Shown piece by piece: positions 51,345-61,366 of a stretch of 64,000 bases of DNA. The stretch spans positions 3,323,501 to 3,387,500 of the forward strand of contig NZ_CP088245.1 of assembly GCF_021117275.1 (NCBI RefSeq). The letters are read 5' to 3'. Made by a program: the position numbers and the translations under genes. The stretch is from Metabacillus sp. B2-18 (GTDB lineage: Bacteria; Bacillota; Bacilli; Bacillales; Bacillaceae). The notes below the pieces were generated by a model. It ran no database searches. It saw only the letters and a program-made list of their open reading frames with translations, and was not told where the DNA came from. Position 1 is the stretch's first letter. Each line of letters begins with the position of its first letter.

Positions 51345-51600
51345 GGCATCAAAAAAAGGACATAGTACTCCCATTTATTAAAATAGAAGTCTCTGTCCTT
51401 TTAACCTGAAAGTTTACCTTATGTAAAAGTAGTACAAATTCGTACCTACATAGGGCTTTCCCCTTTGGTAGTTTGTCTTTATGACAAACACTCTCCAGAG
51501 TTGCGTCAAATAAGAGTTCTTTTGCCTGAGAGATTCACAGTTGTTTGCTCCTTCGGCGCTATACTAAGTTATAGTCTCTCCCCTTATTCTCATCCGCTCA
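51345..51600 (-). ncRNA. Tandem glycine riboswitch controlling gcvT-PA-PB
   Basis: On the minus strand the first aptamer has GCGCCGAAGGAGCAA, then GAATCTCTCAGGCAAAAGAA and CTCTGGAGAG. The second has CCAAAGGGGAAAGCC, then ACTTTCAGGTTAAAAGGACA. A GGACAGAGAC..CTATGTCC hairpin with seven T (about 51352-51402) is the terminator of the expression platform. Glycine binding is known to favour read-through in Bacillus gcvT leaders. Confidence 0.93.
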
Positions 51601-54501: not shown

Positions 54502-54560
54502 TTCGACAAAATGAATATTTGCTTGGAGCTATGTTCATTAAAGTTTTGTTAACAAAACTT
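54502..54560. promoter_or_regulatory. Spo0A box and a 20-bp perfect palindrome upstream of sinI
   Basis: 54502-54509 is an exact Spo0A box on the minus strand (TTGTCGAA). 54541-54560 is AAGTTTTGTTAACAAAACTT, fully self-complementary. Both lie in the 340-base non-coding leader of sinI (54458-54785). A TATAAT box sits at 54705-54710, but no convincing -35 is visible. Confidence 0.5.
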
Positions 54561-54785
54561 CAGAAAAACTCACTTTTCTAATTCCCCTACGTAATTTACA
54601 GGCATATATACCCATCTTATATTACATAAATGTTAAAAACTCAAAATACACAAGAAAATTTTTGTCATCGACATCATTCTGCACACTTCCTAAAAATTCC
54701 CTTTTATAATATGAATAGTTAATAAGACAGACATAAACTAAGGACTTTCGCACAAAAAGATTATTTCTTTAGTAATAATATAATC

Positions 54786-54868
54786 AGTTCAAGGGCAAAC
54801 CTATTGAAAAATAGGGACGCAAAGTCACAGGTCTAAAGTTTAAAACTATGATGGCTGGACTGCCTGGA
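54786..54868 (+). ncRNA. c-di-GMP-I (GEMM) riboswitch upstream of sinI
   Basis: The aptamer core is canonical: AGGGCAAACC, a GAAA-capped P1b hairpin (CCTATT-GAAA-AATAGG), GACGCAAAG, TCACAGGTCTAAAG, and CTATGATGGCTGGACTGCC. It ends about 20 bases before the sinI ribosome site AGGAGG (54884-54889). Between them lies a small AATAC/GTATT hairpin. No intrinsic terminator is seen, so control may be at translation. Aptamer identity is from sequence; the switching direction cannot be read. Confidence 0.9.
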
Positions 54869-54898
54869 ATACAAGAGTATTTTAGGAGGATGAGATAG

Positions 54899-55045
54899 TT
54901 GAATAACGAAACGATACATAACCTGATTAAAGACAGGCAGCTTGACCATGAATGGGTCAAATTAATTTTAGAGGCACTTGAGATTGGTATAAGTGTAGAA
55001 GAAATAAAAGATTTCTTTATTAAAAAAGGAAATCCAACTACTTAA
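54899..55045 (+). CDS. sinI: SinI, antagonist of SinR
   Basis: 48-residue peptide from a TTG start with AGGAGG upstream. LDHEWVKLILEALEIGISVEEIKDFF matches the SinR-binding helical hairpin of B. subtilis SinI. It lacks the DNA-binding domain, so it is a pure anti-repressor. It is the gene directly behind the c-di-GMP riboswitch. Confidence 0.93.
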   Translation: MNNETIHNLIKDRQLDHEWVKLILEALEIGISVEEIKDFFIKKGNPTT

Positions 55046-55104: not shown

Positions 55105-55120
55105 ATATGTTATAATAGCA
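55105..55120 (+). promoter_or_regulatory. Probable sinR promoter
   Basis: TATGTTATAAT (extended -10, TATAAT at 55111-55116) lies 34 bases before the GTG start of sinR. This fits the separate constitutive sinR promoter known from B. subtilis. Confidence 0.5.
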
Positions 55121-55144: not shown

Positions 55145-55480
55145 GTGATTGGCCCACGAATAAAAAAATATAGAACCCAAAAAAACCTATCACTATCAGA
55201 ACTAGCAGAACGAGCAGGAGTTGCAAAATCATATTTAAGTTCGATTGAGCGCAATCTCCAGTCAAATCCTTCTGTTCAGTTCTTGGAGAAAGTGTCATCT
55301 GTACTCGGTGTACCGGTAAATACACTTTTAAATGAACAAAACGAAACAGATCCCGAAGAACTTGACTTAGAATGGACTAAACTTGTTCAAGATGCTATGA
55401 AATCCGGTGTGTCTAAAGAACAGTTTAAAGAGTTTTTGGAGTTTAACAAGTGGAGACTTCAGAATGATCTTGATAAATGA
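55145..55480 (+). CDS. sinR: SinR, master repressor of biofilm genes
   Basis: 111 residues from GTG. The N-terminal XRE helix-turn-helix (RIKKYRTQKNLSLSELAERA and VAKSYLSSIERNLQSNPS) is followed by a C-terminal SinI-type dimerisation hairpin (LDLEWTKLVQDAMKSGVSKE). That hairpin pairs with SinI. In B. subtilis SinR represses eps and tapA-sipW-tasA. Here no tapA-sipW-tasA follows within the window. Confidence 0.95.
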   Translation: MIGPRIKKYRTQKNLSLSELAERAGVAKSYLSSIERNLQSNPSVQFLEKVSSVLGVPVNTLLNEQNETDPEELDLEWTKLVQDAMKSGVSKEQFKEFLEFNKWRLQNDLDK

Positions 55481-56063: not shown

Positions 56064-56843
56064 TTACATTCTATTTGTGAAAAAGCTAATTATTTTATTG
56101 TTTTTTACCTTTTCTGGCATTTCCTTATAAACCATTCTATTATTACAAACTAAATTTGCATTTTCTTGAAGAATAAATTTTGTCTCCACACCTATTTGTT
56201 TCTCAATTGCATCATAAGCATCCCGCAAATGAAATGAACGCATTGTAGTATTATGTGCATCTGAGGCAATAAAGTGTGTGAGATTATGATCTATAAGTTC
56301 AAAACTTAGTTTTTTCACTCTTTTTCCAAACATTCCGGTAATACTAGCAGCAGTTATTTGTGACAAAGCCCCATCCTTTATCAGTTTATATAAAAGATCT
56401 GGCTTTTCAAGTATTTCATGGTTTCTTTCGGGATGAACTATAACTGGTATAATTCCATTTACTTGAAGATCATAAAGTAATCTATATGTATACCTTGGAA
56501 CATGATAATGGGGAAGCTCAATAAGCATATATGAAGAGTTATCACCAATTGTTAGAAGCTCACCCTTCTCTAAATCTTCCACTATCTCTCCATATATACG
56601 AATTTCCTGTCCAGGGAGAATTTCGATATTTATTTTTTCCTTCTGTAGTTCACCCTGAAGTTGGTCAATTTTATTCAAAATCTTTTCCCTATCATTCTCA
56701 TATCTCCCATTTTTATGATGTGGTGTTGCAATGATTTTCGTAATTCCTTCATTCACTGCTACCTTAGCCATTTTAATACTTTCTTCTATATTATTGGCAC
56801 CATCATCTGCATCTGCTAAAATATGACAATGAATATCTATCAA
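56064..56843 (-). CDS. YwqE/CpsB-type Mn-dependent tyrosine phosphatase
   Basis: 259-residue PHP-fold phosphatase that dephosphorylates BY-kinase-controlled polysaccharide proteins. Metal-binding motifs are MIDIHCHILADADDG, KIIATPHHKNGRYEN, PVIVHPERNHE and FIASDAHNT. The partner kinase is not in the window and may lie further upstream in this cluster. The start is ATG, 120 bases after the SinR-like gene. Confidence 0.92.
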   Translation of the reverse strand: MIDIHCHILADADDGANNIEESIKMAKVAVNEGITKIIATPHHKNGRYENDREKILNKIDQLQGELQKEKINIEILPGQEIRIYGEIVEDLEKGELLTIGDNSSYMLIELPHYHVPRYTYRLLYDLQVNGIIPVIVHPERNHEILEKPDLLYKLIKDGALSQITAASITGMFGKRVKKLSFELIDHNLTHFIASDAHNTTMRSFHLRDAYDAIEKQIGVETKFILQENANLVCNNRMVYKEMPEKVKNNKIISFFTNRM

Positions 56844-56962: not shown

Positions 56963-57301
56963 CTACCGGCTGCTTTCAATAAGATTCTTTATTTCTTCTA
57001 GTATTTGAAAATTTTTTTTGTTTTGTTCGAGCATTTTATTCATAATATCTATAGTTACATTTTGCGTTAATTCAATATCTGTTTTAGTGGAAATATCGGA
57101 TGAATTATTGGATTCTAAAAATCTCTGAAGATCTACCTCAAGTGCAATTGCAATTTTTAATAGAATCCCGATAGAGGGGTTTTCTTGAATGTTTCTCTCG
57201 ATATTGCTTAAGTAAGATTTCGATATATCTGTCTTTTTTGATAATTGAGAAAGGGTCATATTTCTACTTTCCCTTAACTTTTTAATAGATGTACCTAGCA
57301 T
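56963..57301 (-). CDS. Second SinR-like XRE regulator inside the polysaccharide cluster
   Basis: 112 residues. The HTH half (IKKLRESRNMTLSQLSKKT, DISKSYLSNIERNIQENPS) is nearly parallel to SinR at 55145. The C-terminal part (residues 70-112) lacks the SinI-type hairpin and is instead a coiled coil. It could heterodimerise with or compete with SinR, like SlrR, but is not SlrR by sequence length. Function inferred. Confidence 0.8.
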   Translation of the reverse strand: MLGTSIKKLRESRNMTLSQLSKKTDISKSYLSNIERNIQENPSIGILLKIAIALEVDLQRFLESNNSSDISTKTDIELTQNVTIDIMNKMLEQNKKNFQILEEIKNLIESSR

Positions 57302-59082: not shown

Positions 59083-59841
59083 TTATGCTTTAGTTTCTCC
59101 ATTTTGTTTCATACTTTGTCTAAATCGATAGGATTCTCCGTTCAGTAAGTGGATGTGTGATCGATGGGTGAGTCGATCGAGAAGGGCAGCTGTCATTTTT
59201 TCATCTCCGAAAAGACTAGTCCACTCCGTAAATTCAAGATTGGTAGTAATAATAACGCTTGCACGTTCATACCTACTTGAGAAAAATTGAAATAGGAGCT
59301 CTGATCCAATTTTTGAAAAAGGTACATACCCTAGCTCATCTACGATGATCACATCAAATTTGAGCCACTTCTTTTCTAAAGCACCGAGTTTATGCTCGTC
59401 ATTCGCCATCAGTAATTCTTCTACTAATTTAGACGCTGTAATGAACTTGGTTTTATAACCATTCTTTATCATCTCAATACCGAGTCCTGTAGCTAGATGG
59501 GTCTTTCCAGTACCACTATTTCCGAGAAAGAGAATGTTTTCCTTTTTCTCAACGAATTCACCTTTAGCTAGTGTTAAAAAACGATTTCGATTTAGACTAG
59601 GCATTAAACTGAAATCATAGGTATCCAAGGTTTTCTGGACTGGAAAGTTTGCTTGTTTTAGTCGCCTCTGTTTTTGATTTTCATCTCTCATTTCTATCTC
59701 TACTTCAAGTAAGGCTAACAAATACTCTTCATAGCTAAGGTTACGTTCTTCAGCTTCTCTTGCGAGAGAGCGATACTGTTTGTGAATGGTAGGCATTCTA
59801 AGCTGCTTGGTTAAATGATCCACTAGTAATTCTGTTGTCAT
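59083..59841 (-). CDS. istB: IS21-family ATP-binding protein IstB
   Basis: 252-residue AAA+ helper of transposition: Walker A LFLGNSGTGKTHLATGLG, Walker B FDVIIVDELGYVP, sensor-like SVIITTNLEFTEW. It starts one base after the istA stop. It appears intact. Confidence 0.95.
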   Translation of the reverse strand: MTTELLVDHLTKQLRMPTIHKQYRSLAREAEERNLSYEEYLLALLEVEIEMRDENQKQRRLKQANFPVQKTLDTYDFSLMPSLNRNRFLTLAKGEFVEKKENILFLGNSGTGKTHLATGLGIEMIKNGYKTKFITASKLVEELLMANDEHKLGALEKKWLKFDVIIVDELGYVPFSKIGSELLFQFFSSRYERASVIITTNLEFTEWTSLFGDEKMTAALLDRLTHRSHIHLLNGESYRFRQSMKQNGETKA

Positions 59842-59842
59842 C

Positions 59843-61366
59843 TTACTGACCTCCTGTTAATTGTCCATATTGAGCTACATTCGATTTTTTAACTTTATAA
59901 TCTACTAGATTAGTAGGCGTTTTCTCTTTCGAAAGGTCATGGATTTTGACGTTTGCGTTTGTCAGTTTTTGAATTATTTCATGAACCACTTCATACCTAA
60001 ATATCTGCGTTTGTTCCGCCTGTTGTAAAGCTTGCGTGAGTTTCTCCATTCCTATCTCCCGATGGAGAAGGAGTAGACGAATAAACTTTCGATCTCCTGC
60101 AGCACCTTCTTGTTCACGCATCTTTTGATGGAAACGCCTGAACACTTCTGGTACTTTAGAAGATTGAAAGGCACGGGCATCTCTGACAGCACGTGGTTTC
60201 TTTAATAGAGCTTCTAGATAATGATCTAAAACGGTAACCATTTGATTTCTCTCATAGGAACGAGAATGTTCCGCGATCACTTGATTTTGAGCCACAACGA
60301 TCACACGATCCACAAAAATTTTTGCCCACACAGCTTGACCGACATAGCTACATGGAACAGAGTATTGGTTGGTATCAACGGTTATTAAAGATGTTTTATT
60401 TACTTGGCATGAAACAAGCCTACACGCCTCAAAACGGTTCTCTGGCAATGGGTGAAGCTGTTGTTTCTCCTTTTCCCACATAGCTAAAACTGTTTCTTTT
60501 GAGTAAGGTACCATTCGTCTATCAGCCTCTTGTAGGCACCATTCTGAAAGGTATTCATTTAATTCCTCTAACGATTGGACTTCTGGTTTAGGTACAAGGG
60601 CATTTCTTCTTATATAACCTACTGTCCCTTCAATGCGTCCTTTTTCGTTTCCAGATCGTACATTACAAAATTCTGCTTTGAATAAATAATGAGCCTGGAG
60701 AGCGATAAAAGATTCTTGTTCGAGGCGATCACGCCCCTGAAGAATTTTAAGTACAGCTGTTTTTAAATTATCGAAGAGTCCTTCAGTTGGAACGCCTCCA
60801 AAAAACTCAAACGCATGAACAAAACCATCTAAGAAAGCTTCTTGTTTTTCATTTAGATAAGCTCTTACAAATCGTAGGCGGCTTGCCGAAAGCTGAATGC
60901 AAAAGAGGTAAACACGTTGCGTTCGACCCTGTAGAATAATGTCCGCCTCTCCCCAGTCGAATTGGAATTGGTGGCCGAGTTGAAAATCAAGTGGAATGAA
61001 GACTTCCTGTAGTTTCTTTTTACGTTTGGCAACGATTTTTCGAATATTGGATGCGGAACCTTTGAAATCATACTCGTCTTCTAGTCGATTGAAGATTCTC
61101 GCAGCTGTATGTTTTTGTTTTCCCCAGCTCTTTAGATCTTCCTCAAGCCATTGATCGATAATCGGCAATACTCGCTTTGTTTCATCAGAATACTGCTTTG
61201 TACCATAGACCTTTTGGCGTTGAATGGTTGTAGGAGCTACATTTTGTTTTAAGTATTTACTAACGGTGTTTCTTGAAATACCAAGTTTTTCTGCAATTTG
61301 TCTTTGTGATAATCCTTCAACCTCTTTTAAAAATTTGATACGATGAAATTGAGCCATATTGATCAT
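59843..61366 (-). CDS. istA: IS21-family transposase IstA
   Basis: 507-residue DDE transposase. An N-terminal HTH (EVEGLSQRQIAEKLGISRNT) is followed by a catalytic core with FQFDWGEADI, LFDNLKTAV and NEKGRIEGTVGYIRRN (D, D, E all present), and a C-terminal domain. Length and motifs are complete, so the element could be active. Confidence 0.95.
   Translation of the reverse strand: MINMAQFHRIKFLKEVEGLSQRQIAEKLGISRNTVSKYLKQNVAPTTIQRQKVYGTKQYSDETKRVLPIIDQWLEEDLKSWGKQKHTAARIFNRLEDEYDFKGSASNIRKIVAKRKKKLQEVFIPLDFQLGHQFQFDWGEADIILQGRTQRVYLFCIQLSASRLRFVRAYLNEKQEAFLDGFVHAFEFFGGVPTEGLFDNLKTAVLKILQGRDRLEQESFIALQAHYLFKAEFCNVRSGNEKGRIEGTVGYIRRNALVPKPEVQSLEELNEYLSEWCLQEADRRMVPYSKETVLAMWEKEKQQLHPLPENRFEACRLVSCQVNKTSLITVDTNQYSVPCSYVGQAVWAKIFVDRVIVVAQNQVIAEHSRSYERNQMVTVLDHYLEALLKKPRAVRDARAFQSSKVPEVFRRFHQKMREQEGAAGDRKFIRLLLLHREIGMEKLTQALQQAEQTQIFRYEVVHEIIQKLTNANVKIHDLSKEKTPTNLVDYKVKKSNVAQYGQLTGGQ

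Follow-up and report, generated by a model that had tools for sequence, protein, structure and literature searches.

The sinI gene of Metabacillus sp. B2-18 is preceded by a genuine, conserved c-di-GMP-I riboswitch, which on the evidence of its sequence would bind c-di-GMP. We consider it probable that this riboswitch, with a Spo0A-type promoter upstream of it, turns on translation of the sinI mRNA when c-di-GMP is bound (a translational ON switch), a reading for which the support is comparative and thermodynamic. The choice of a cell between motility and matrix production is the textbook role of the SinI-SinR switch, and in other bacteria the textbook biofilm signal is c-di-GMP; to our knowledge, the two hardly meet in the B. 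subtilis picture. The window referred to below is the whole stretch of DNA that was analyzed (64,000 nucleotides), and its relevant features are collected in Table 1.

Aptamer and probable promoter in front of sinI

The Rfam covariance model RF01051 (c-di-GMP-I) matched the plus strand at 54784-54867 with 78.9 bits (gathering score, 35; E value, 7.4e-14), and the model was covered end to end (1-87/87). The gap between the aptamer 3' end and the Shine-Dalgarno (SD) sequence of sinI is 17 nt. Equivalents of G20, A47, and C92, which we take to be the ligand-contact residues in Vc2 numbering, are intact in the window (G 54794, A 54821, and C 54863). Over 123 leaders, the G20 position is G in 120, the C92 position is C in 120, and the A47 position fits the pattern in 106, with the remaining 17 outside it. 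The host genome contains 11 c-di-GMP-I aptamers in 5.47 Mb, from which the probability that one lies in the ∼150 nt ahead of a given gene is calculated as ∼1.5e-4. Because this value is so low and numerous other genomes show the pairing too, chance placement is excluded. Judged by eye, the further aptamer-led genes of the host genome include some that presumably encode EAL, GGDEF, HD-GYP, and chemoreceptor-like proteins; GGDEF matches in the genome number 24, two of them adjacent halves. RF01051 gave no match in any of 14 control genomes, which include B. subtilis if the set is that of the GGDEF comparison.

The sinI product is a short protein adjoining sinR; it matches the Pfam family SinI (PF08671) with 43.3 bits (cutoff, 31.4) and resembles the SinI chain 1b0n_B (E value, 3.6e-4). 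SinR matches 1b0n_A with 150 bits (E value, 1.9e-43), and the nearest named SinR locus is that of Metabacillus niabensis (95% identity). A sequence-only reading of this DNA had proposed a canonical GEMM aptamer about 20 bases before the ribosome site of a 48-residue SinI peptide and had called for a search with the Rfam GEMM-I model. Its coordinates and its reading of the sequence were correct, and both the full-length Rfam match above cutoff and the Pfam match beside the SinR gene bear the proposal out.

Table 1. Features of the sinI leader and its surroundings (window positions)
Feature	Position	Strand	Basis or remark
Spo0A-box-like TCGACA (reverse of TGTCGA)	54668-54673	+	31 nt before the -10
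Probable -10 hexamer TATAAT	54705-54710	+	Fixed spacing to TCGACA across relatives
c-di-GMP-I (GEMM-I) aptamer	54784-54867	+	RF01051, 78.9 bits
P1 5' strand CAG	54785-54787	+	Partner, CUG 54864-54866
Anti-SD strand CCUGGAAUAC	54863-54872	+	MFE fold; first C, presumed ligand contact
Hairpin 3' strand GUAUUUUAGG	54877-54886	+	MFE fold; covers AGG of the SD
SD of sinI, AGGAGG	54884-54889	+	Sequence
sinI, 48-aa anti-repressor (TTG start 54899, stop ends 55045)	54899-55045	+	PF08671
sinR, biofilm repressor	55145-55480	+	HTH_3 and SinI domain

Upstream of the aptamer lies a conserved promoter-like arrangement. Of 117 distinct upstream regions, 77 contain TGTCGA, which we take to be the Spo0A box (mean of 9.4 and maximum of 17 in 100 first-order Markov resamplings), and 55 contain TGTCGAA (mean, 3.8; maximum, 9). 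The reverse of TGTCGA, TCGACA, stands 25 to 45 nt before TANWAT in 49 of the 117 regions (mean of 0.73 and maximum of 4 in 100 mononucleotide shuffles of all 123), with a clear peak in spacing at 31 nt (40 occurrences); the exact pair is absent from roughly half of the regions, if not more. The window box lies 31 nt before TATAAT, and transcription of sinI would start near 54717, ∼67 nt upstream of the aptamer. Spo0A would act at this promoter; in B. subtilis, Spo0A∼P turns on sinI (PMC11925247).

Several other elements were noted in and around the leader. A second Spo0A-box-like sequence, TTCGACAAAA, occurs at 54502-54511, ∼200 nt above the -10, and an AAGGACTTTYG-like element at 54740-54750, between the -10 and the aptamer, recurs in several Metabacillus leaders, with a similar one in a Peribacillus leader. 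A second SinR-like helix-turn-helix protein, lacking the SinI domain, is encoded at 56963-57301 (-) near CpsB/CapC (56064-56843), and a 484-amino-acid protein without a Pfam match is encoded beside these genes. Two open reading frames (ORFs) at 59083-61366 (-) resemble what we take to be an IS21-type transposase pair. A glycine riboswitch (71.4 bits) is located at 51504-51593 (-), ahead of an ORF named gcvT-like by eye. Elsewhere in the host genome, a second SinI paralogue (L212, C1:525322-525423, minus strand) is without an aptamer match.

Predicted control of sinI translation

In the MFE fold of 54784-54915, CCUGGAAUAC pairs with GUAUUUUAGG in a 10-bp hairpin (54863-54886; 10/10 pairs) that closes the SD. 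The UUG start (54899-54904) is paired with 54787-54792 in the same fold, and the whole window leader is more stable than any of its 200 shuffled versions. Bases 54863-54866 are common, in silico, to the SD hairpin and to the ligand core and P1. Because 54863 is presumably the equivalent of the ligand-contacting C92 of Vc2, and 54864-54866 can form P1 with CAG 54785-54787, the hairpin and the bound aptamer are predicted to be mutually exclusive; therefore, an ON switch is predicted. In silico, then, the helix that hides the SD is incompatible with the ligand-bound fold, as is characteristic of translational ON control.

Without ligand, CCUGGAAUAC would pair with GUAUUUUAGG and the sinI SD would be hidden. 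With c-di-GMP bound, the 3' end of the aptamer would be held by the ligand and helix P1, the hairpin would be blocked, and SinI would be translated, titrating SinR and releasing the matrix genes. Spo0A∼P would thereby set whether a sinI message exists, and c-di-GMP would set whether that message is read. The sequence-only reading had suggested that c-di-GMP could set the SinI:SinR ratio and with it the motile-to-biofilm switch; the predicted anatomy supports this, in the direction of more SinI translation with c-di-GMP. Its further suggestion, that two biofilm signals could couple at the SinI peptide, agrees with the presence of the aptamer and of a conserved Spo0A-box-like promoter upstream.

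The energetics of the switch were estimated with RNAfold. In the window, the hairpin state has -29.9 kcal/mol and the P1 state -21.0 kcal/mol, so that the OFF state is favored by 8.9 kcal/mol. This is more than the ligand alone is expected to repay at equilibrium; therefore, co-transcriptional folding or tertiary contacts would have to help. For the window P1 duplex, the native energy (-2.2 kcal/mol; row L092) falls short of the mean obtained with swapped partners (-3.3 kcal/mol). Transcription termination was rejected as a platform because no terminator-like site was found between the aptamer and the sinI start; the single such site that was found lies inside sinI, against 0.6 expected by chance.

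Comparable platforms were predicted in many other leaders. Across 75 distinct leaders, in which SD positions were picked by script (as in the 110-leader analyses below), a few of them probably wrongly, the CCU at the aptamer end pairs with the SD region in 55 with a mean probability above 0.5. When binding was simulated by barring these bases, SD openness rose by more than 0.1 in 44 of the 75 (from 0.37 to 0.76 in the window); opening was below 0.1 in 31, several of which closed instead. Of 89 distinct platforms, 50 show at least 8 of 10 gapless pairs counted from the C92 position, with the partner allowed to lie up to 47 nt further on (mean of 11.9 and maximum of 20 in 50 mononucleotide shuffles). 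P1 is short, and some relatives have TAG/CTA in place of CAG/CUG; its duplex energy in 110 leaders was -3.3 kcal/mol for native versus -2.3 kcal/mol for swapped partners. A gapless P1 that begins at G19 was largely unpaired across the 75 leaders and was replaced by the CAG/CUG helix further out.

Two sequestering designs emerged from the 110 distinct leaders, a comparison that left out L191 and L215 (below the Rfam cutoff) and L174 (no clear SD). At a margin of 1 kcal/mol, 81 leaders prefer the 3' design and 21 the 5' design, with 8 undecided, some assignments being weak on both sides. The 3' design outperformed its swapped control (mean, -6.9 versus -5.9), with a P value that ignores relatedness. 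The 5' design pairs the SD with a strand like UCCUCC that adjoins or overlaps P1 beside CAG, and P1 is formed by UCCAG/CUGGA or similar; in 11 leaders this design has an energy of -9.3 to -13.8 kcal/mol (swapped means, -2.8 to -5.6). Taken across the full set of 110, it was no better than swapped (P = 0.14), because most leaders use another design and only a subset uses this one. Read by eye, the 5' design is also predicted to exclude P1, with the same ON logic.

These results bear on whether the aptamer, while binding c-di-GMP, might instead be an OFF switch or act through mRNA stability or transcription termination. We regard this as unlikely, although such an aptamer would accommodate both the much greater in silico stability of the hairpin state and those relatives in which simulated binding gave no opening, or closing. 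Against it, the hairpin shares 54863-54866 with the ligand core, P1 is apparently excluded by each of the two sequestering designs, and no terminator-like site separates the aptamer from the start.

Conservation of the aptamer-sinI pairing

Sharing of the aptamer by related sinI leaders, which the sequence-only reading had proposed as a check, was found in 50 of 80 SinR loci and, among the matches listed, in 44 of 67 class genomes, where it lies just upstream of a readable stand-alone SinI gene. The 80 loci were searched with a model built from the host genome's own 11 aptamers. Each of the 51 resulting matches is followed by a SinI-like ORF; these ORFs score 66 to 158 (L023, compared with its own copy, reaches 212), while the best scores at loci without an upstream sinI are 16 to 34, scored against one reference. 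Positive loci include members of Metabacillus, Sutcliffiella, Peribacillus, Heyndrickxia, Mesobacillus, Cytobacillus, Lederbergia, Fictibacillus, Alkalihalobacillus, Pseudalkalibacillus, Oceanobacillus, and Thalassobacillus. Rfam confirmed the aptamer in 17/17 divergent or oddly scored named loci; this check covered 17 of the 50 positive loci, and the other 33 rest on our own model. In 41 of the 80 loci, sinI is just upstream of sinR, and the aptamer is missing in 8 of these: three Fictibacillus, two Paenibacillus, Halalkalibacter akibai, Ectobacillus antri, and Heyndrickxia sporothermodurans.

The orientation of these matches identifies the target. Although 34 of the 51 aptamers share the strand of sinR, as they might if sinR or the whole sinI-sinR operon were the main target and the SinI:SinR ratio stayed unchanged, the other 17, together with their sinI genes, lie opposite sinR; therefore, the target is sinI, not sinR. 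The predicted hairpin, moreover, covers the SD of sinI only, and a TATAAT between the two genes (55111-55116) is a possible separate sinR promoter, which makes control of sinR or of the operon a very improbable reading.

Within the host genus, the aptamer is present at 19 of 20 yqhG-sinI loci, that of the window included, and family-wide at 29 of 30 (the exception, L121, belongs to genus g1). Genus g4 has it at 5/5 further loci and genus g2 at 0/15. That the window aptamer is itself a nonfunctional relic, as proposed below for the B. subtilis group, is scarcely credible: decay is likely in a sister genus, but here the aptamer scores 78.9 bits with intact G20, A47, and C92 equivalents, the hairpin has 10/10 pairs, and 19/20 loci of the genus keep the aptamer.

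A match to the SinI alignment was found in 75 of 398 class genomes. The 67 counted leave out six without a row among the matches listed and two (G288 and G331) without a stand-alone SinI. Among the matches listed, aptamer-sinI pairs extend over 27 of 35 genera, 20 of 23 families, and 47 of 89 SinI-type ORFs, in a sample that is uneven and whose genera are not independent of one another. Rfam confirmed 18 of 20 class loci tested, L191 and L215 being below cutoff; without these two weak matches, the counts are 42/67 genomes, 26/35 genera, and 19/23 families, again among the matches listed. On the same basis, sinI is without an aptamer in 23 of the 67 genomes: g2 (6/6), f36/g49 (8/8), g99 (2/2), and seven single genomes.

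Some sinI aptamers are unusual. The one at L061:3682-3766 has A at the G20 position, a change that we take to be typical of cGAMP-sensing GEMM variants. Those at L040:4627-4790, L043:4636-4794, and L068:3401-3583 are oversized (159 to 183 nt) and probably carry long inserts. Multiple aptamer-sinI copies occur in L023 (two), G097 (two), and G111 (three).

The B. subtilis group and known systems

The SinI of L255 is identical to the 1b0n_B chain (57/57 residues), which is taken to be B. subtilis SinI; thus, B. subtilis or its closest relatives fall within genus g2. As in the window, sinI there is an orthologous gene after yqhG, and TCGACA precedes TANWAT by 30 to 31 nt in 9 of 14 loci viewed. 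The same SD hairpin is kept in 43 of 44 g2 leaders with 9 or 10 of 10 pairs (L135 gave no sinI), a count that leans on a pattern chosen after viewing 14 leaders and fixing most of the 5' strand. By folding, the first three SD bases are mostly hidden in 24 of 43 g2 leaders; in the L255 leader, the first two are hidden and the next two are not.

Unlike the window, the g2 leaders gave no c-di-GMP-I match by Rfam at E values up to 1 in 15 loci, the other 29 being read by pattern only. A fragment resembling the 3' strand of aptamer P3, with C92 read as G, is present in 17 g2 loci with a subtilis-type SinI, which share descent and are not independent. This fragment (18 nt before the hairpin) is a better P3 match than all but ≤0.00054 of window positions, and its scores, -0.6 to 12.4, are all below that of the lowest true training aptamer (17.0), as expected of a relic. 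It is weak or gone in the other 26 g2 leaders (0.001 to 0.17). In a subgroup comprising L136-L140 and kin, CAGTCAAAAGCAA-like and GACGCAAGC motifs that resemble a badly diverged aptamer precede an intact hairpin; their SinI tail is RSHSIKPF in those printed whole.

From these sequence comparisons, the sinI leader of the B. subtilis group is a probable fossil riboswitch. We lean, with some reserve, toward the view that in much of Bacilli sinI was ancestrally under the control of a c-di-GMP riboswitch, that B. subtilis keeps the hairpin without the sensor, and that the Spo0A-only picture is derived.

The pairing itself has been listed once before. Irla et al. (2015; PMC4342826) give "(c-di-GMP)-sinI" in their Table 4 for Bacillus methanolicus MGA3, the same ligand class before the same gene, from a comparison of RNA-seq 5' UTRs with Rfam. 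In the excerpts of that paper used here, the entry amounts to one table row and one clause, with no analysis of platform, direction, conservation, or promoter. The sequence-only reading knew of no described riboswitch at sinI in B. subtilis, which fits a leader with the hairpin and without an aptamer match; the novelty that this implied does not extend to the pairing, given the MGA3 entry in PMC4342826. Apart from Irla et al., the pairing was not found in the part of the open literature searched, with most subscription journals and all of bioRxiv outside it, and term counts and passages from modeling papers that treat sinI translation yielded no mention of c-di-GMP. In B. thuringiensis, an array is reported to show spo0A and sinI up at high c-di-GMP (PMC7793685).

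The sinI aptamers are members of GEMM-I (RF01051/RF03167), above cutoff in the window and in 18/20 and 17/17 relatives' loci. They differ from GEMM-I in general in their target, a 48-amino-acid anti-repressor, and in their platform, a predicted hairpin that joins the 3' end of the aptamer itself to the SD. The riboswitch class is known and the pairing listed once; in the literature searched, we found neither its wide distribution nor the two platform designs nor the probable fossil in B. subtilis.

If the translational ON reading holds, c-di-GMP would, in many genera, act directly via RNA on the dosage of a SinI whose message comes from a Spo0A-type promoter, and the sinI leader offers a direct test of how the c-di-GMP and Spo0A signals combine. 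The same analysis suggests why the sinI leader of B. subtilis may be shaped as it is: if this hypothesis is true, low SinI translation in B. subtilis would trace to a lost signal.
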